Source: Gonapodya prolifera JEL478 (taxonomy: Eukaryota > Monoblepharomycota > Monoblepharidomycetes > Monoblepharidales > Gonapodyaceae). Taken from it: DNA of 64,000 nt. Numbering within the stretch: the stretch's first letter is position 1; the number at the start of each line of letters is the position of its first letter. Under the pieces are notes generated by a model. That model saw only the letters and a program-made list of their open reading frames with translations. It searched no databases and was not told the DNA's origin. The DNA lies in assembly GCA_001574975.1 (NCBI GenBank), contig KQ965746.1:381812-445811 (forward strand), in the 5' to 3' direction. Made by a program: the position numbers and the translations under genes. Positions 1 to 61,571 of this stretch are shown here, one piece after another.

Positions 1-2321
1 TCCCACCCTGCCGCCGCCGCGAGCATCAACGCCGTTCGACCCTCCTCATCCCTGGCTCCGACCAACCACTCGCGCCCGTCTTTGCTCGCACTTTTACCCT
101 TTCCTCCTCCCCCAGCCGCCCGCGCTCTTGCCGTGAGGACAGACACCATTTGGAGATCCCCTCTCCACGCCGCGTGGTGAAGCACTGTCCGCCCTTCGGC
201 ATCTGAGATGTCGAGGCGGGCACCTGCGGAGCAAAGTAAGGCCGCAATATCTGCGTGTCCCGCAATTACGGCTCGAAACAAGGGGGTCTGTCCTGAGTGG
301 TCGAGAACATCGGGATTTACAAGGTAGGAGCTAGAAGAGGTGGGCATCGACTCAGAGGCGGTTCTTGAGGGAGATGAGCCAGGGGGAACTCGAAGCTCAA
401 GGAGAACTGCAGTCACTGTGGTGTGGCCGGCACCGGCCGCGACGTGAAGGGCTATCAGTTCATTCTAACAGCGTTAATCGGATGTGGTGCAAAGGTAAAA
501 CAGTGCGTACTCACCCGTGGCGCCCTTCCCGTCACCTGCGTTTGGGTCAACGCCTCGTTCAAGACACTCCTCCTTTACCATTACCCTGACAGCCTGCACA
601 TGGCCCCTTTCTGCCGCCCAATGAAGCGGAGTTCGTCCGTGATTATCGCCCTTGTACCCTCGTGGCATTGACCGTCCCCCGCGTTTCTGCAAATCCCCTC
701 CTTCACTTTCTTCCCCCTTCCCATCCATCAATACCCCGACGCACCCTGCATGGTTCTTCGCAGCAGCATAATGCACCGCAGTCGCACCACCAGTTGCATC
801 TCCAACACCTGGATCGCATCCCAATGCAACCATCCTCGCCACAAGTTGTGCATGCCCACATACTGCAGCCCAATGAAGGGGTGTCCGTCCAGCCGAGTCC
901 CTCGCGTCCAAGTTGACGCTTTTGAGCGCGCACAACGCATCTACAAGAAGAGGGGTGTTGGCAAGTGCAGCCAAATGCAGAGCAGTCCGTCCCTCGTGAT
1001 CTTCGAGGTGAGCCAGTTGAGGGGCAATTCGTAGCACCACAATAGCGCAACAGGAATCATCCTCGACAGTCGCGCCAGCCCCCACACCTGCTCCAATGTG
1101 ACTCTGAGTTTGCGCTGACCAGCTCCTCGATCGACCATCCCCTGGTCCTCCCGCGGATGCAACACGCGATGCATGCCCACCACCTCGCCTCACACCTGCC
1201 GCCCAGTGGAACGCTGTTTTACCATCCGCATCGGTCGCATCAAGTCCGACCTTTCCCGTGCTCACTAATACTCCCAGTACCCGCGTCCGGTCCAGCGCAC
1301 ACGCGAGGTGTGCTGGAGTCATGCCTTGGGCATCCGGTAAGTTCAGTGCGAGTCGAGCCAGGTCACCCGTGGGGTGAGGAGAAGGCGACTGACGATGCGA
1401 CAAATGGGACGGTGCGGGAGATGTCGCCCCGGGACCACGGGTCGACACTCCCAGAGGCCCCAAGTGCGATCTAGATCGACTTCTGCGCCTCGCAGCAGCA
1501 GCAGCTGATGAAATCGAGACAGAGACTCTCCTCCCCACGCCTCGGGGCCACCTCCACCACCCCGTCGCTCCAATGTCACGTGCCGCAGAATCTCCACCCT
1601 GTGCCGCTTCCTCCACTGCCGCAATAACCTCCCGGAGGCATTCCTCGGCTCGTGATTCGTCTTCGCCCATGACGGCCAAATGTACCACTGTCCGGCCAGC
1701 GGCATCTGGTTGCAGCCATCGGACCCGAGGTCCGGCGGTTCGGCGGAGGGTTCGGAGTACGGTGTAATGACCAAGAAGAGCTGCCCAATGGGCGGGGGTA
1801 CGGCCGGTGGGATCAGGGAGGTTGAGGGAGTGTGTGATAGGAGGAAGGATGGATTGCAGAGGAAGGGGTGCTACCAGATCCGAGTTTTTGTTGAGATACC
1901 GACGACCTGCAACAGGGGAGCAATCGAACACACCTCGAATCACCACCTCTTCCATCCAACGCTTCCAACCACCTTCTTTCGCTTTGCTGCCGCCCAGGCT
2001 GGCCGCTCTTCGTCTCGCCACCTTGCCCTCCGCCTTCCCAGTGACCAGCACCGCAACGACCTCTTCGTGCCCACCCATCGCAGCGAGCGCCAGTGGCGTG
2101 CGCCCTTGTTCGTCGGGATGTTCGAGGAAGGGAGAAGCGGCGGAAGGGGAGAAAAGGAGGGCGGAGAGATCGCCGCGAGTGCACGCATGGTGAACGAATG
2201 TCGTGGTATAAGAGGGTGTAAGGGGAGGCGGTGGTGGGGTGGGTGGGTGGGTGGGATGGTACGGGAGAGTGGGCTGCTCGTAGAGATGGTTGGCACGAGT
2301 GAAAGGGATGGGAAAAGTTCG
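1..2321 (-). CDS. Ankyrin-repeat protein, 3' end off the left edge
   Basis: Many ankyrin units are visible, each with the G-R-T-P/A-L-H-x-A-A signature. The first unit (about 2120-2200, DEQGRTPLALAA) lies upstream of the first in-frame Met at 2078, so the true start is probably in an upstream exon; the frame is open back to a stop at 2322-2324. The first exon ends at 515. A 63-nt intron (452-514) with donor gtgagt and acceptor gatag joins GKGAT to ALHVAAGAGH, restoring an ankyrin unit. The next exon carries two or three more units and is still open at base 1. Low-complexity Arg/Ser inserts (about 1430-1560) separate repeat blocks. Ankyrin arrays act as protein-binding scaffolds. No second domain is visible, so the function is unknown. 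The repeat assignment is firm; the 5' end is not. Confidence 0.8.
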
Positions 2322-5579: not shown

Positions 5580-6973
5580 AATTGTCCATTGTTACAACTT
5601 CCATCCAAATGAAGTTGTGGAAAGCACAACATGCTATGATGAGCCTTGTCTAGACAGCAGGGGAGTACTGGGGCACAACATTGAGAATGGGGAATTGCTT
5701 CTTCAGTATGCAAAATGCATGCTCAATAAAGAGGGAGGAATGGTGGAGGTTAAAAACTTCTTTTGGATTGAATGGTCTAGAGGGGAATTCCAGGAGTAAG
5801 AATGTGCTTCACAACTTAAGTGAGCTGCACAAGCCTGTAATCTGCAGGAACGTGTATATGTGTTCAAATATACATAACAAGTTGTAATGTGCATGGAACT
5901 CACCTGCAGGAACATGATGCCAAACTTGGGGCATGTCCTGCAGGTGTGCACATCTAAACCTGCAGCCACAGTAGTGGCACAGCAGCTAATACCCAACACT
6001 CATACTACTCTATATATTCCACATTAGTGGATGTCAGTGTGACAGAATGCAGATTGGACAAAAAAAAACATTACAAGATCACTAACCTCAATCCAGCAGT
6101 TCCCTATTCCTTAAGGTGATACTGGACTGTCTTGTAAGGAGTGAGAAACTGCAAGGAAAGGGTGTAACCAGCATCTGTAAGCCAGAATTTACCCTCTGGG
6201 GTTGCAAAGTCCTGTCCAATAGCATTCTTTAGCACAAATCCATCAAATGCTAATCATTCCCATCCTGGGAATACGTAGCAGAACAGTAAGTCAAAGTTGA
6301 CTGCTGCCAGCACATTCCAAGTAATGTCCCCCTTCCTGTTCTGATATGGTACCTAGTCTCTCATTTGCATATATGCCAAGATGTGGGTACCATCAATTGC
6401 ACCAATGCAGTTGTTGAAAAATGGGTAGTATTTTTGGTTATTTGAAATGTGTGGGTGTCTAAACTCCATCCGTTGGCAGGATAATGCATTGAGGTGCAAG
6501 AGAGATGATGGCATGCAAAATAGTGTGGTAATAGTGGGAAAATGACCAACCAGAGTGTTTGAATTGTTCCAGTTGGTCAAATTTGGTTGTGCCTAACAAG
6601 ACTCATTGCAAGAAAATGAAGACTTGCCCACCAGTGGAATATCCCTGCCATCCTTCACCATTCCAATGTCCTGTAACTTTGCTACCAATAAATTGAAGAC
6701 AGTGGGTTCCATCCTGAGGATGCAACAGGCCCAAAATGGTGCACTTTCCTAAACCTCCCACACATAGTCCAATCCTGGCAGTACCAGGCCCCTTATCCTC
6801 TTAGTCGTTGCAATCAATTTTCTGAAGACAAACTGGAGGGCAATTGCCATTGTATAAATGGCAAGCACCATACAAGTTTGCACCCACTCCACTTGTGAAG
6901 ATTCTGACCCAGACAAGGAAGAAGTGTCCGATTCATCCATATCAGACATTGATTCTGCTTCTGGAGATGCCAT
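5580..6973 (-). pseudogene. PIF/Harbinger DDE transposase, broken
   Basis: Read on minus, an N-terminal acidic, Ser-rich stretch starts at 6973. It is followed by the diagnostic NNCIGAIDGTHI block (about 6380-6420, first catalytic Asp), then QNRKGDITWNVLAA (6310-6350), FWLTDAGY (6180-6200, second Asp) and IEHAFCILKKQFPIL (5690-5740, the Glu helix). In-frame stops follow MQMRD, FPGWE and YHLKE, and the frame shifts between blocks. Catalytic landmarks persist but the gene cannot make a full protein. It is convergent with the Myb-like pseudogene, as in intact family members. Confidence 0.75.
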
Positions 6974-7343: not shown

Positions 7344-8271
7344 ATGACGACCACTCAGGTCCCCTCCATCGTCCTTCGGGTGAGACACAAATGGAGTTGC
7401 CTTGTTTATCTAGAACGTCGTCTTATCTTGCCGCTCCTCGCACTTTCCTGCCACTTTCCAACTTCCGAAACTTCGATCGGTCCCTCTCGAATCCGACAAT
7501 AGGACATTTTGGCAGCTGGCAAACCCACCTTCGATGCATCGACTCTATGGAGCACGCGTCCTGCCTTGATCATGGTCGTTCGGAGACCAGGATGATTGTT
7601 GTGTCGCGAAGAGGCGCTCGAACTTGCAAAATCGAGCGAATCCATCGAGAAGTATGTCAAACCCAACAACTCTGTCTCGCTCGTCGACCAGAACTAAAGT
7701 AGCTTATCCTGGTCCAGATATGCGGACATGGTCGCTGTCGTTCACGAGGTGGGTAAATTTTACAATGTTTCCAACTTCGATGCAAGCTGGACCTTATTGT
7801 GTACAGGAACGCGGCGCCAAAGATTTTGCAGAGAACTACTGGAAGAAACCCCTCTACGTGAGTCCATCCGATGCGAGTTCACAAGGCGGTTGTTTCGAAT
7901 CACGTGCAAATGTCAGCTCGACGAAGAGAAGAAGCTTTACGAGCTCGTTCAAGGCGGCAAGCAGAACTGGGCTTCCGTCTTCTCTCTCTTCAGCTCCGAT
8001 GTTCGCGCGAATCTCAGCAGAGCAAACGGAAAGGGAGTCGAGGGTAACCTCCAGGGAGAAGGCCGTTTGCTCGGAGGCTTGGCTTTGATCTCGACCAAGG
8101 GAGTGCACTAGTGAGTATTTTTCTCGGATGTATGTGGCCGGAAAGATGTTTTGGTGACAATTTGTGACATCGCAAAGCTCGTACGCTGAGAAGCACTTTG
8201 GAGACCACGCGCCAATGACAGAGGTGCTCCAGGCCGTCTCGGGCATCTCTGGAGAGGCGAGCAACCCTTAA
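7344..8271 (+). CDS. SelU/PRXL2-like thioredoxin-fold protein with in-frame TGA (predicted selenoprotein)
   Basis: Six exons: 7344-7379, 7503-7651, 7718-7748, 7807-7857, 7917-8110 and 8178-8271, all with GT-AG introns. They give 184 codons if TGA 7593-7595 is read through. Family landmarks run in order: ASTLW, then ALIMVVRRPG-[TGA]-LLCREEALEL, KYADMVAVVHERGAKDF, ENYWKKPLY, EEKKLYELVQGGK, GGLALIS and YAEKHFGDHAPMTEVLQAV. In the selenoprotein U / PRXL2 (FAM213, AhpC-TSA_2) family this first redox residue is Sec or Cys in a [U/C]xxC motif; here TGA is followed by L-L-C. Everything after the TGA is conserved and correctly spliced, which argues against a dead gene. Read as a stop, the protein would end after 42 residues. 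The likely role is thiol/selenol redox chemistry. It lies just downstream of the transposon. A SECIS element was not established. Confidence 0.85.
7593..7595 (+). other. Predicted selenocysteine codon (UGA)
   Basis: In-frame TGA in exon 2, directly after the RRPG codons and three codons before the TGT (Cys) at 7602-7604, giving a U-x-x-C redox motif. The call rests on position within the family motif and on continued coding for five exons; recoding itself cannot be shown from DNA. Confidence 0.75.
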
Positions 8272-9257
8272 ACACCCGTTGATCCGCAAAATCTAGACCG
8301 TGGGAACAATTTCGTCCTCTTGCTGCGAACCCATCTGTAATGAAGGTACCCCTGGACATTCACACCCATGATTCACAAACTCCCAACCTTTGGTGCTAGG
8401 GTAGGAAACATGCGGTGTAATGTAAAGCAGTTCACTGTGGTTGGTGGTACTTGAGAATCAAGGAGTGGTTTTGCGCGAGGGGTTAATGTTGTGACCGTGG
8501 CTTGAACTGAGCGTCCTTAAATAAACTCGATTTAATCATTACTACTGAGCAGCGGTGCTTTGATTCGGAGTTGGCGGTGATGAATCGTTGGTGGGCGTTG
8601 AAACAGAGATCCTGTCCGCTCGTCTCGTTCTTTCCAGGCCGTCCCGAACAGCTCAAAGCATGCATCCTTCTCGCTTCCTCTGTACAATAGAAAATGTGTG
8701 TCGAATTATTCGTGGAAGTTGTTTCTCAAATTAATGTCATGACCGTAGAACCATCAAATAAGCCACGTTTTCTGGGCTCGAAGTTAGGGCAATGGTGCAA
8801 TGGGAAGGTTATGAGTGCATCGCAGGGTCTGCTGATGTGAACGAGAAAGACAAGGACGATCGGAATCCGACAACCCACCGTTTTCCTAACCGCTCTCGCT
8901 TCAATGCACTGTTTGAATTCATCGACTGCGGAAGATTAGAGGAAAAGATGGGTTCGCCGATCCAATCGATTGGGTGCGGTTTTGACTTTTTACGTATCGT
9001 CGACGACCCTTCGGAAGAGTGTGGTGTGGGGAAAGGAAAACATCGACTGATTTAGATGACGTCGCGGTCGATGTGAAACTTCCTAATCTGGATGACATGA
9101 CGTGAAATATAGTGCGGCTTGGCAGCAAGTCCCTGCAATTGTCATCAATTCAGGCAGGCAGGTGGCAGTTTGAGCGATCGAACCAGGTGCATCCAAATAT
9201 CCCACGGCATCGCTCATCACACTCTACTGATCGTACCAGAACGCGCGTGGACTGACG
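8272..9257. other. Intergenic, expected location of a SECIS element
   Basis: Contains the 3' UTR of the SelU-like gene and the upstream region of the next gene. ATGA cores occur at 8340, 8368, 8580, 8739 and 8811. By eye none gives a clean SECIS (quartet, about 12-bp helix, apical AA). A stem pairing 8369-8374 with 8455-8460, enclosing 8383-8388 with 8439-8444, can form but does not match the consensus spacing. A structure program is needed. Confidence 0.4.
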
Positions 9258-41589: not shown

Positions 41590-43802
41590 TTAGCTTTCTT
41601 TCAGCACCGCAAGCACCTGCTTTGCGCGGGTATTTCCCTGCTTTATGGCCTTCCTTAGCAACGCTTCTGCCTTCACCAAGTCCTTTGCGACACCCCACCC
41701 ATTCCCATAACATATGCCGAGATTACACTGCCCTTCAGAGTAACCTTGTTCTGCCGATTTCTGAAACCATTGCGCAGCCTTCTCAAGATTCAATGTCACG
41801 CCCTCTCCGCTCTGGTAGCACCATCCAAGATGACACTGACCACCTGCATGGCCTTGCTCCGCGGCTTTTCGAAACCACGTTGCAGCCAGCTCGAGGTCAA
41901 CACTCACCCCCCATCCATATTGATAACACAAGCCCAGCTTGTCCTGTACCAGTGCGTCACCTTGCGCTGCTGCCTTTCCATACCACTCCACGACCTTGTC
42001 TTCGTCCTTCGCCACACCCCATCCATTTGCATAACATGCTCCCAAGTTGTACTGTGCTTTGGCAAGCCCTTGATCCGCAGCCTTTTGGAACCACGCGACA
42101 GCCTGATCAAGATCCTGGTCAACCCCCGCACCATTGTAGAAGCAGACCCCGAGCTTATTTTGACCATCAGCATAGTTCTGCTGCGCTGCCCGCTTCCACC
42201 ATTTGACTGCTTCCGCAGGATCCTTCCTCACGACGTCGTCAAATCCAAAGTAGTAAAACTCGCCCAGGACCACCTGGGCCTGGGGGTAGTCGTTCTCCGC
42301 AGCCTTGGTGTACCAATTGAGCGCCTCAACAAGGTCCCGTTCGAGATGCCCGAGTCCATTTCGGTAAAAGAAAGCGATGCGTTCTTGGGCTTCAGGTGAG
42401 CCCATCTCAGCGACACGGGCAAACATTTGGGACGCGGTGTCCATGTCGTGGTTTGATGCCGCTTGTCGCGCCAATGCTAGCAGCTGGTTAACATCAACTT
42501 CAGGCGTCACGAAGGGTGTGGGTGCTGGCGTCGGGTCGGTGAGAGGCACGTGCGGTCTGAACCGTTTGCCAACGTGATATGACTATGTGAGCAACCACGT
42601 CTACGATATCGGCACACCTACACAAGCTCCTTTATCTCGCTCAATATGGTGTCAAAATCCGGTCGAACTTCGGGCTCCTGTGACCAGCAGCGCTGCATGA
42701 GGACTTCTAATGGTCGGGGCATGTGCGAGCCCGGCGGGAGAATGGGGCGGAGCTTGCCAGAGCAGATGTCGAGCAAGAGCGCTTCGCGCCCGGCGTCGTC
42801 GAGGTCGCTCAGTTGGGGGTATGGCGATTGGGAGGTCCATACCTGCGCGGGCGGCGGAACCACAAGGCGGAGAGGTGCGTAAATGGCGGGATTTGAAGGG
42901 TTTTCAGGTAGGCGATATTACGCACGACGAAGATTGCGATACCAAATGCGTAAACGTCGTCCTTCTTTGTGGTTCCTTGACCCATGAGTCGCTCTGGCGA
43001 CATGTACGCCGGAGTGCCCGAGCGAGACCCGGTGGTGGTGTTTGCATTTGACGAGTTGGCGAACGGGGTATTGGATTGTGTGTTCTCCGAATCGTTCTGG
43101 AGGTGTGAGGTTGTTTGGTTTGGGCCGCCAAACCAAACTAGTGCACTCACATGAAGGCTCCTCGCTAACTTGGACACCCCGAAATCAGTTATCACACCAC
43201 GAAGTTTCTTGTCCACGAGGACTTGGGCCGGCTTAAGGTCCGCGTGTATCACATCTTTGCTGTGCAGGAACGCCATTCCTTCCGCAATGTCCCGGAGCTG
43301 TACCGGTCAAACATGGAAAATGAAGGGTGGTTCTGAGAGAATGTCAAGTTTGGCGGTGACTCACGAGAACGAGCGTCTTCATGTGCCGTTCTGGGCCATG
43401 AGGGATCTTTGCGAGGAATGTCTTCGTGTCTCCGTTCTCGATGATCGGTGACACGAAACGCCACACAACCCCTTTGCGAATGAGGCCATAGAGGGGTAGA
43501 ATGCGCGGGTGAGAGAGGCTGTACCAGATTTCAGACTCGTTGTCGAAATCCTACATACATTCGTCGTTATCAGTGCGCAAGAAGGGTAGGACGTGATGAT
43601 GCGACGCAAACTTCACCGATTCACTGTAGTTTTCCGTGAAAGCCGTCTCTTTCACCGCGACGGGCACTTGCTTCAGCCATAGACCACGCACGACCTGCCC
43701 AAACCCTCCAACCCCAAGTATATCGTCTGAAACCTCGACGTCGCTCTCCTGGATCTCCCAGAGTTTGGGGATCGCAGCGTAACCGGACTTCTCGCTGCTC
43801 AT
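41590..43802 (-). CDS. Protein kinase fused to SEL1 repeats
   Basis: Several exons from ATG 43800-43802 to stop 41590. Kinase landmarks: glycine loop GVGGFGQVVRG, PVAVKE (Lys), HPRILPLYGLI, catalytic loop HADLKPAQVLVD, ITDFGVSKLA, TPAYMSPERL, DDVYAFGIAIF and CWSQEPEVRPDF. The order and sequence resemble tyrosine-kinase-like (TKL) kinases. The catalytic-loop Asn (usually DLKPAN) is Gln here. A splice at the end of the kinase joins in frame to SEL1 repeats (about 41600-42460), for example WYTKAAENDYPQAQVVLGEF and WFQKAADQGLAKAQYNLGAC, eight or so units. Kinase plus SEL1 is a known protein architecture in some fungi and protists, the repeats probably recruiting substrates. Activity is uncertain because of the Asn change. 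Confidence 0.82.
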
Positions 43803-50614: not shown

Positions 50615-52071
50615 ATGCCTCGGGGCACAATCGTCAGACCAGGTGAGATTCCTGTTCCTGTGCGCACCTCAGCGGACTCGGTGAAACCTCAGTTTCCGCT
50701 TCTGTTTTCACCATCGATACATCGATACTGGCTAAATCAAATGTCAATGCAGTATTCCTGTTCCTGCTCCTGCTATGCATCGCGCCTGCGTACTCCGTCC
50801 CCACGTCCACAAACACGACCGCATCAACGGCATTTTCAGCGTCTTTGTCACCAACTCCGATACCGGGAAATGACCCCGAAGCCGACTCTGATAACGCGTC
50901 CGACTTCTGGTTCTCCAACCCAAATCTGGCTAGCACTGTCTGGCTCGCCGGCGTGGCAGTGTTCTTTGTCTTATGTATCGCTGGTGGCGTCTTGATGTGT
51001 GCAGTCGGTGGTGTGAGACGATGGGTGGTGGGTATTGACTCAGCGTGTGGTAGGACCTTTTGGCGGCTGATACCCACCTTCTTTTCTCTACGCATGCGTG
51101 CACATCGGCGTTCGATGATGCACATCCTTCAGTACGCCCGAACTCACCTTGCCGCCCTGCGCACCCAAAACCGTGCCCTGTACCGCCACATCATTTTCAC
51201 GGGCGAGACCATCGACCCGCCGCCTGCATGGGATCCGTCTCCGACACGCCGCACACTGGACCCCGCCCGCCTGCAAATGTGGGCTGTGACGCGCGTGGCC
51301 TCGGGCAACGTCTCTGCACACCTCGCCAGCAAGGACCCAGACGCCGCATCGCCACCACCTCAACCACGGTCAACATCGGCGCGCCTCACGTCCCACGCAT
51401 CCATCCTCTCCACCCTCTCCACCCTCTCCACCCTCACGTCGCCCCCCGCTTGCCCAATCTGCCTGGACCCGCTGAGACAACCGGGCGTATCGGTGCGCAT
51501 CCTTCCGTGTGGTCACAGGTTCCACACAGAATGCGTCGACAGCTGGTTGGTGCGGTGGGCGGGCGTGTGTCCCATGTGTAGGCGGGACTTTACAGACGCA
51601 GACGCAAACACAGACGCAGGGGTAGCGGCAGGCGCGAGTACGGGTGGTGGAGGCAGAGAGGCACAAGCGGAAGGATCCGTCCCCCACATTGCGCCGCTGT
51701 CCATCGTGGCGCGGTTCGTGCACAGGCTGAGACTCCGGCGGGGTGGGGGTGGGACCACTAACGTCACGGTGCGAGCCGGAGACAGCGAGGGGCATCCGCT
51801 CGCTGAGAGAAGTGTGGAGACCGAGGCAGAGGCAGAGGCTGTGGAAGAAACAGTGGCGCAGTGTGCAGGGGCAGCAGAACCAGCGCGACTTGAGAGTGAA
51901 CCGGAAGCAGGAGCAGGGACCGTGGGGGAGGTGCACGCGGACGAACAAGTGGCGGTGGCGGAACACGAACACGAACAGAAAATCGACGCCGGGTGGGAGG
52001 TTGTTGGGCGACACAGTGACGCGGAAACGTCCGCGTTGGAGCACGAACAGGGTGAAAGGGGAGACGCGTGA
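50615..52071 (+). CDS. Secretory/membrane RING-H2 ubiquitin ligase
   Basis: Two exons (50615-50642 and 50753-52071) give 448 residues. Splicing creates a signal peptide, MPRGTIVRPVFLFLLLLCIA, ending near APAYS; the hydrophobic core lies across the junction and supports this start. A second hydrophobic helix, VWLAGVAVFFVLCIAGGVLM, follows (about 50940-51000), then a cytosolic region with the RING-H2 finger CPICLDPLRQPG, LPCGHRFHTECVDSW and CPMCRRDF (about 51450-51595), with all eight ligands present. The C-terminal 160 residues are Ala/Glu/Gly-rich. The architecture resembles membrane-anchored PA-TM-RING-type E3s without an evident PA domain. A short STL tripeptide repeat precedes the finger. 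Confidence 0.85.
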
Positions 52072-59540: not shown

Positions 59541-61571
59541 TCAATCCGTCGTTGGCGACCCGGAATGCTTCCAAATCATCTGTTGATAGTCCCGCAAAGT
59601 CTCCACCTTCCTCACTGACGCTTTCAGGAGATGTTTGATGGGCTTTGAGGTGGTCAGATGAGACTTGATCATAAAAATAAATGAAAATACGGAGAGGAGG
59701 TAAACTCACGTCCATCAGCATGCACGCCTTCTGCCACGCCACCACACACGCAACAAACTTCCCCAAAACAGCCATTTCATCCGCCTGCCGCCTGACCTCT
59801 GCGAACGGAATCCCCGCAAGATCGTCGCACCCGTTCTCGCAACCAAGCTCCGTCTCAGCCAGCTCAACAGACTCGCTATTCACGGTCGCAAACTGCGCAC
59901 CCCACGGTGTTCCAGGCTGCGGCCGTGTCGAAAAGAGATTGATCAGCCCGTCGGTGCCGGAGAGGAAGGCTCGAAAGGCGAGAGACGGGGAGGCGTCAAA
60001 GGTCGTTGTGTCCCGACTGAAGAGGACCAGCGCAGCACGGAGAATACGCACAAAGTGGGCTGGAACGGGGTCAGGTTCTGCAATTGGTGCAACGCGGGGT
60101 TCGCCTGTTGCTGGGACGACAAGCGCAAGCCACTGGTGGAGCAGCGTTTCCGACCATCGAATCTGTCGCAACACTTCTGAAATAGCGCGGACCTTGAAGT
60201 ATACAGTGCAATAAGCGTCGAGAAGGCGTTGTGATGCGAGAGTTTGGTACTGCATCTGTATAAGGGTATTGACAAGTGAGCAGGCAGATTGCCACCCTAT
60301 GAGCACGAAATGACTCGAACCTCGAGAGACAGCGACGTCGACAACAGCCCCAGGTAGCGCCGCACTTCAATGATTACTGCAGCTTTGCACCTCTCCCACG
60401 CCTCCCTTGGAATCCCAGCGCCGCCATACACATCCACCGTCGCGAGGGCCTTGGACAGCACGTCCGGCAAGCGTTCGCCTCGCACGCCGATCCGCCGCTC
60501 GAGCTCCACGAGCCGCTTGCTGATCGCCATGAGATGTGTGAGTGTGAGCTGGGTGAGAAGTTTTGCCGAGACGGGACGGGAGAGGGATGCCAGAGTGCGT
60601 AGACTGGGAGGTGATCCGGAGGGCGGCGATGATGGGGTCGTGTTGGGTTCCGTTGGCGACAAGGATCCCGACGTGGGGCGTGTGGACGACGTGCCGCAGG
60701 GGTCAAGCGATTCGCTGATCCGCTCAAGGTTTGGGCAGAGCCGTGCGAGCTGGAGGAACAACGGGGAGCAGAGGGCAGGCAGTAAAGTCCCATCTGTTTG
60801 CGTGGGGCTCAACGAAACAGGTGAAGGACTTGTGGGCGAGCCCAGGGCACCAAAAAGGGCCTCGGTAAGCTGAATTGCAGTCGTGTCAGGGCGCGAGGGC
60901 GATTGACTACTTGTTGGTGAGCCATTCAATCCTGCACCCAAGGCTTGCCCCGGCGAACGGACTTCATTTGCCCGCAACTTCATTTCAGAGTTCTGCGATG
61001 TCACCGTGAGGACATTGAGAAGTACCGACATGAGCTCGCGAACGTCTCGTGACCTTTTGGGGCGAACTGACGGGAGTTCGTCGGCAGGAACAGTCGGGGT
61101 GACAGCGGTGCGCAGGGCCTCGCATCCGAAGCAGAGCGAGCGGACCAGGTGGCCCCGCCGAGGGAGTGTGCGCAATAGAAGGCGGAAGCTTGAGAGCGAC
61201 AAGACTGTAATTTTGCGGTACAGGATGCGAGAGGCACACTCGCTGGGAGCGCGGGCAACGTGGCAGACGACGAGCAAGTCGCGCAGACTCAGATGGGAAC
61301 AGATATGTGAAAGAATCTCTGGGGGTAAATCTAGCAGACACATGGGCCCCCGAGGTGTCAGCGACTCCGTCTCCTTGCTCTCCGGCGGTGCACTGCTGTC
61401 CACCAGAGGACTCGAACACCCTGGGCTCGGTTCATTTCGTTCATTGAAGGTTGTAATTCGTTGTTGCCCACACGCAATCAGCAGCGCAGTCCATACGTTC
61501 CAGTTGAGTTCATCGTAGAGATGGAAATGCCTCGAGAGCACGACAGCGAGACCCTGTGCCGTCCTTCCCAT
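59541..61571 (-). CDS. F-box protein
   Basis: Three exons from ATG 61569-61571. The F-box lies at about residues 77-115 (CLLDLPPEILSHICSHLSLR, DLLVVCHVA). A Ser/Pro/Thr-rich linker and helical segments follow (LTQLTLTHLMAISKRLVELE, WERCKAAVIIEVRRYLGLL). A 75-nt intron after SLSLE joins to MQYQTLASQRLLDAYCTVYF, then VRAISEVLRQIRW and AEVRRQADEMAVLGKF. A further intron (donor gtgagt, acceptor tcaag) gives the end LRDYQQMIWKHSG and stop 59541; without it the frame runs to 59527. It is a probable SCF substrate adaptor, with no recognised LRR or WD repeats. Confidence 0.75.

Follow-up and report, generated by a model that had tools for sequence, protein, structure and literature searches.

A predicted selenocysteine codon in a SelU/PRXL2-type gene of the fungus Gonapodya prolifera, with a candidate SECIS element in its 3'UTR

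Introduction

Fungi were for a long time believed to make no use of selenocysteine (Sec), and most of them have lost the parts needed for it. Earlier literature reports no selenoproteins in the fungi sequenced by that time, and as late as 2021 Sec was still described as unreported in fungi (PMC8559351). Sec in early-branching fungi is mentioned, after Mariotti 2019 (doi 10.1038/s41564-018-0354-9), in several later papers (PMC7435645, PMC10386755, PMC11378755, PMC10778597), and nine Sec-using fungal species are cited in the last three of them; seven of the nine are Harpellales according to PMC10386755, and SelenoH is described as common to Harpellales in PMC12611240. Fungal selenoproteins have therefore been in print since 2019, and the case presented here adds to a known kind. 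Like the known fungal Sec users, Gonapodya prolifera possesses both Sec machinery and selenoproteins. However, whereas Harpellales share SelenoH, the selenoproteins found here are SelU, SPS2 and an animal-type thioredoxin reductase, and the clear Rdx-type gene is a Cys form. Most fungal selenoproteins were reportedly found to be without consensus SECIS elements in the work of Mariotti in 2019. Each further Sec-using fungus is relevant to the question of repeated losses of an inherited trait versus a single loss.

SELENOU is described as widespread in algae (PMC7539508), and the vertebrate Sec-containing SelU belongs to SelU1 according to PMC3316567, in which the SECIS is described by a GA/GA core and an apical AA. 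The SelU1/PRXL2/FAM213 proteins of fish, birds, algae and some protists combine an AhpC-TSA_2 domain with a U/CxxC motif and a UGA at the first Cys, as does the gene examined here. Unlike the known SelU1 cases, the present gene belongs to a fungal host, whose genome also contains a Cys paralog. In the literature searched, mainly titles and abstract openings, a Sec-containing SelU was not reported for any fungus and no listing linked Gonapodya with selenocysteine; Mariotti 2019 may list a fungal SelU.

The SelU Gene and Its In-Frame TGA

The window, that is, the whole stretch of 64,000 nucleotides analysed (G000:C16:381812-445811), belongs to an assembly of 47.6 Mb in 207 contigs. The initial annotation had placed a six-exon SelU/PRXL2-like gene at 7344-8271 on the forward strand, and these coordinates proved right. 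The spliced sequence gives 184 residues in an intact frame, and all five introns follow the GT-AG rule. Exon 1 (7344-7379, MTTTQVPSIVLR) is followed by exon 2 (7503-7651), which holds the predicted Sec codon and the UxxC motif and was aligned to the solved structure 9us9 and to the Cys paralog; exons 3 (7718-7748), 4 (7807-7857), 5 (7917-8110) and 6 (8178-8271) complete the model, the last one ending in the terminal TAA at 8269-8271.

The TGA at 7593-7595 (+), codon 43, is the sole in-frame stop ahead of the final TAA. It lies in the context VVRRPG-U-LLCREEA, at the catalytic Cys position of the family, so that a [U/C]xxC active-site motif is present as RRPG-TGA-LLC. On its 3' side, 141 sense codons of family sequence continue unbroken, and the chance of as many stop-free codons after a genuine stop is about (61/64)^141 = 0.001. 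Moreover, the Pfam domain AhpC-TSA_2 (PF13911) was matched on residues 53-160, downstream of the TGA, with an E-value of 8.1e-17 and 62.1 bits (cut-off 27). The gene thus joins a UGA at a conserved redox position to conserved coding sequence beyond it, one of the features by which eukaryotic selenoprotein genes are recognised. Genes of this kind are likely to be cut short or overlooked by standard annotation.

Relatives of known structure place the codon at the same point. A solved prostamide/PGF synthase, PRXL2B (9us9), is homologous over residues 21-181 (E 2e-16), with a CxxC opposite the UxxC of the fungal protein and a Cys opposite the TGA, where Sec is predicted here; its substrate specificity is not to be inferred from this likeness. 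In a second solved chain, 9usa, Ser stands at both aligned Cys positions, which are probably the active-site residues. When the genome was searched with the SelU protein, six matches were obtained, four being exon pieces of SelU itself on contig C16 and two lying on contig C20. The C20 paralog, spliced by eye, covers the whole protein and reads RRPG-C-SLCREEA, with the codon TGC at the Sec position. The placement of the TGA between RRPG and LLC, already proposed from the letters of this stretch, is accordingly borne out by a Cys in both 9us9 and the paralog. The same genome search found no second Sec copy of SelU.

Sec Machinery in the Genome

The reading of UGA as Sec had been tied in advance to tRNA-Sec and eEFSec, the absence of which was to count as refutation, and both are present; all the machinery genes named for checking, namely tRNA-Sec, SepSecS, eEFSec, SECISBP2 and SPS2, was found in the genome. 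Two tRNA-Sec loci scored 74 and 72.9 bits, the gathering score being 47; the bit scores matter, since the same search matched all 14 prokaryote controls, five of them above the cut-off. ARAGORN likewise called both loci tRNA-SeC with anticodon TCA. SepSecS was found at two loci, and the C-terminal domain of eEFSec (PF21208) at one (97.5 bits; none of the 14 prokaryote controls). SECISBP2 is one of eight L7Ae matches and lies on contig C26, with 26.3 bits against a cut-off of 22.1; the best solved relative of its protein is SBP2 (7zjw, E 1.6e-11), the next being an L7Ae at 9.5e-4.

SPS is represented by one locus on contig C1, in three exon pieces that each reach at most 45.9 bits, under the family cut-off of 125. 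Nevertheless, the best solved relative of the spliced fragment is selenide water dikinase 1 (7.5e-36), and the gene reads KG-TGA-G, a GT-AG intron and CKVPQDD, with its in-frame TGA at the known Sec position (KG-U-GCKVPQ). SelU, SPS2, eEFSec and SECISBP2 were found at one locus each, in searches able to miss copies. PSTK is presumably encoded in the genome as well. As a separate observation on gene structure, the intron of SPS2 (L014, about 1011-1090, on C1) lies directly after TGA-G and parts the Sec codon from the next conserved Cys.

Other Selenoprotein Families

Three selenoprotein types were found in all: SelU, SPS2 and thioredoxin reductase. The last is of the animal type, with the C-terminus GC-TGA-G-stop, and occurs in two copies, on contigs C43 and C57; when its C-terminal piece is read with Cys in place of the TGA, it aligns with a solved thioredoxin-disulfide reductase through to the final residue (1.5e-20). 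The GC-TGA-G-stop pattern itself is mostly background, as it occurred at 13 places versus 11 in a reversed control, and two of the 13, all of which were translated, are thioredoxin reductase. Among GPx genes no Sec form was found, all five loci having Cys, and of three matches to the Rdx family, two belong to a single gene of the Cys form. The third Rdx match (L018), under the cut-off, was judged spurious by eye and rejected.

A search with the motif GATATGA returned 32 rows (8 in the control) at 30 distinct places, in 24 of which a helix forms on folding; three of the 30 are the known SPS2 and thioredoxin reductase sites. In eight of the 27 others, the surroundings were translated and read by eye, and no further selenoprotein was seen there. 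The presence of three selenoprotein types in one genome makes their SECIS elements comparable, so that the way in which UGA is marked as Sec in fungi becomes directly testable.

SECIS-like Elements of Thioredoxin Reductase and SPS2

In both thioredoxin reductase and SPS2, the 3'UTR follows a SECIS-like plan in which a UGA/GA core and a helix are combined with an apical AAU(C)AAA and one more apical helix; we take it to resemble the SECIS form with an extra apical helix. In the two thioredoxin reductase copies, TGAC is followed by a helix II of 12 bp, AAATCAAA and a long apical helix, the 3' strand carrying TGAA, and in a scan permitting long apical regions the score of this element was reached by none of 100 shuffles in either copy. 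Of the 38 paired positions compared between the copies (core included), 32 are identical, three show one-sided changes with pairing kept and three are broken, all of these in the apical helix. The SPS2 element consists of TGAA, a helix, AATAAA, a GGCC minihelix and TGAT; its score was reached by two of 100 shuffles in the same scan, and 3 of 27 motif-bearing sites elsewhere fold as well. In a stricter energy scan, thioredoxin reductase fell between the best and the fifth-best of 100 shuffles and SPS2 narrowly below the fifth-best, while stability against shuffles gave z -3.03 for the former and z -1.87 for the latter. Rfam models recognised a SECIS neither at these loci nor at that of SelU.

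A different structure was also noticed in the thioredoxin reductase transcripts: a 91-nt hairpin of -46.3 kcal/mol directly after the stop (L027:846-936 on C43, and at the same place in L029 on C57). Its z-score is -4.58, none of 200 shuffles fold as well, and the four changes between the copies all fall in loops; it is without the facing GA/GA core of a SECIS.

A Candidate SECIS in the SelU 3'UTR

A SECIS search had been proposed for 8272-8810, and here the outcome was divided: a candidate was found at 8493-8624 (+), but it is not stable beyond shuffles and has no Rfam match. It was obtained by descriptor and folding on the plan of SPS2 and thioredoxin reductase. Its core would place TGAA (8503-8506) opposite AGAT (8607-8610), with helix I formed by 8493-8501 and 8614-8624. 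In helix II, 8507-8516 would pair with 8593-8599 and 8604-8606, leaving a 4-nt bulge at 8600-8603; the apical AAATAAA lies at 8519-8525, and helix III would run from about 8526-8540 with 8576-8591, all on the forward strand. The candidate agrees with thioredoxin reductase in its core and 12-nt spacing, resembles it in the apical AAAU(C)AAA and is laid out much like SPS2.

The shared descriptor, TGA-N-(9..17)-AAT(N)AAA plus a helix, was settled with SelU in view. Over both strands of the window (128 kb), it gave 14 motif matches, eight of them with a helix, among which the SelU site was the best at -32.5, the next being -26.5. In 33 further loci (171 kb, both strands; a pattern-selected set from which SECIS-bearing and some overlapping loci were excluded, three overlapping pairs being left in), nine matches were obtained, three with a helix, the best of which reached -33.0 but lacked helix I. 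For a stretch of 540 nt, the expectation is about 0.04 motif matches, falling to about 0.003 when an equal fold with helix I is also demanded; the latter figure derives from 3 of 49 other sites (0 of 13 in the window, 0 of 9 in the further loci and 3 of 27 GATATGA sites) and is optimistic, since SelU was already under inspection when the apical motif was picked out.

Folding gave a less favourable picture. In the unconstrained fold, helices I, II and III form, and the G and A of the core pair with TC at 8610-8611, not with the facing GA. The candidate is no more stable than shuffled sequences (z +1.44, 188 of 200 folding at least as well), and a general scan, whose six listed rows do not include the reported core pairing, gave a best SelU score that 31 of 100 shuffles reached as well. 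A competing SelU site (TGA 8369, GA 8493) scored -34.1 in the energy scan, versus -32.1 for the reported one, the shuffle median being -33.9. In addition, T and not A precedes the core, and helix II is bulged. Because the candidate does not stand out from shuffles in stability and the SelU site was known when the descriptor was fixed, the call stays at moderate strength: 8493-8624 is probably the SelU SECIS element, by a modest preference.

Compared with the eukaryotic SECIS, the elements of thioredoxin reductase and SelU differ in an unusually long apical region (tens of bases, with helix III), and those of this genome in the apical AAU(C)AAA, in the T before the core in SelU and in the lack of an Rfam match. 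Compact canonical SECIS elements with a short apical loop gave no candidates in SelU and SPS2 in a first scan; in a second one, against 40 shuffles, SelU and thioredoxin reductase were ordinary, and SPS2 lay between the best and the third-best shuffle. A hairpin just 3' of the UGA was also considered as a recoding signal and rejected, as 94 to 402 of 1000 synonymous variants fold at least as well in SelU (four lengths) and 926 to 985 of 1000 in SPS2.

It is possible, although the odds lean the other way, that SelU, SPS2 and thioredoxin reductase share a recognisable SECIS subclass of this fungal lineage, in which the GA core and helix II are normal and the apical part joins AAU(C)AAA to an additional helix III that is often long. 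If so, fungal selenoproteins thought to be SECIS-less may carry elements missed by current predictors, and the mechanism would be the ordinary SBP2/eEFSec one and not an altered one.

Proposed Decoding and Alternative Explanations

Codon 43 of SelU very probably encodes selenocysteine. The product would be selenoprotein U, a thioredoxin-fold oxidoreductase of the PRXL2/FAM213 type with Sec as the first active-site residue, and its function is presumably the reduction of thiols or peroxides. The transcript would be translated through the UGA with insertion of Sec from tRNA-Sec, charged via SepSecS with selenophosphate from SPS2 and delivered to UGA 43 by eEFSec. A 3'UTR SECIS bound by SECISBP2 would direct this decoding, with 8493-8624 as the most likely element; the identity of the directing RNA is put forward on the strength of the shared plan. 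A different 3'UTR structure, such as Mariotti 2019 reportedly proposes for most fungal selenoproteins, might serve instead, a lesser though substantial possibility that is compatible with Sec insertion: the stability of the candidate is unremarkable, its core reads TTGA, it has no Rfam match, another SelU site scored better in the energy scan, and in thioredoxin reductase a further hairpin of high stability directly follows the stop codon. However, 8493-8624 shares core and 12-nt spacing with thioredoxin reductase, has a comparable apical AAAU(C)AAA, is laid out like SPS2 and is the top site of the window by the shared descriptor.

Readings without Sec have to account for the same codon. A recent pseudogene or null allele, in which the Cys codon TGC became TGA and the protein ends after residue 42, would require a single base relative to the paralog, which could itself cover the function; SelU turned up in a single Sec copy, whereas several other genes are present in duplicate, and this counts against the Sec reading. 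Nevertheless, such a lesion is improbable, as everything downstream is intact, with five GT-AG introns and no further stop, and, in a genome that has Sec machinery and two more selenoprotein types, the stop would have had to fall on the one codon for which Sec is known in the family. One base would also suffice for an assembly error at 7595, the true codon being TGC or TGT, but a hit on exactly that position in a Sec-decoding genome seems very unlikely. Least probable of all is a genome-wide reassignment of TGA, for example to Trp or Cys: a lone in-frame TGA would fit it, yet the Sec machinery is present, and each in-frame TGA in SelU, SPS2 and thioredoxin reductase coincides precisely with a known Sec site.

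Host and Genome Structure

The assignment of the host to fungi, made earlier from the letters, agrees with chitin synthase matches, although these exceed their cut-offs by thin margins. Chitin_synth_1N was matched partially at two loci (27.6 and 25.5 bits, cut-off 22), one of which presumably encodes a division I chitin synthase, as read by eye. From this same locus two typed fragments were searched, of which one matches Chitin_synth_1 at 25.6 bits versus 25 and the other matches nothing.

Several of the genes described above lie in collinear pairs, with identities of 87% for the tRNA-Sec loci, 89% for thioredoxin reductase, 84-96% for GPx gene pieces and 78-86% for SepSecS pieces. The contig pairs C24/C49, C19/C75, C43/C57 and C24/C147 are collinear and mostly 83-89% identical, with pieces from 78 to 96%. 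Because of these pairs, the assembly is taken to contain two diverged copies of at least these regions, which suggests a genome that is doubled, hybrid or very heterozygous, the copies being alleles or products of hybridisation or duplication.

Elsewhere in the window, four neighbouring frames at 41593-42549 (-), 474-2075 (-), 50845-52068 (+) and 60300-61571 (-) carry Sel1 repeats (seven matched stretches), ankyrin repeats, a RING finger and an F-box, and no selenium link was seen for these four. Within an AT-richer stretch upstream of SelU, 5802-6044 of the window is about 90% identical to sequences on C109 (L072, 243 bases) and C18 (L058, 58 bases), both within 6.4 kb of the contig start, and may be a dispersed or subtelomeric-type repeat. 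Outside the window, L057 (C17:166270-167400, -) reads by eye like the C-terminal portion of what may be a peptidylarginine deiminase, an enzyme that one would not usually expect in fungi.
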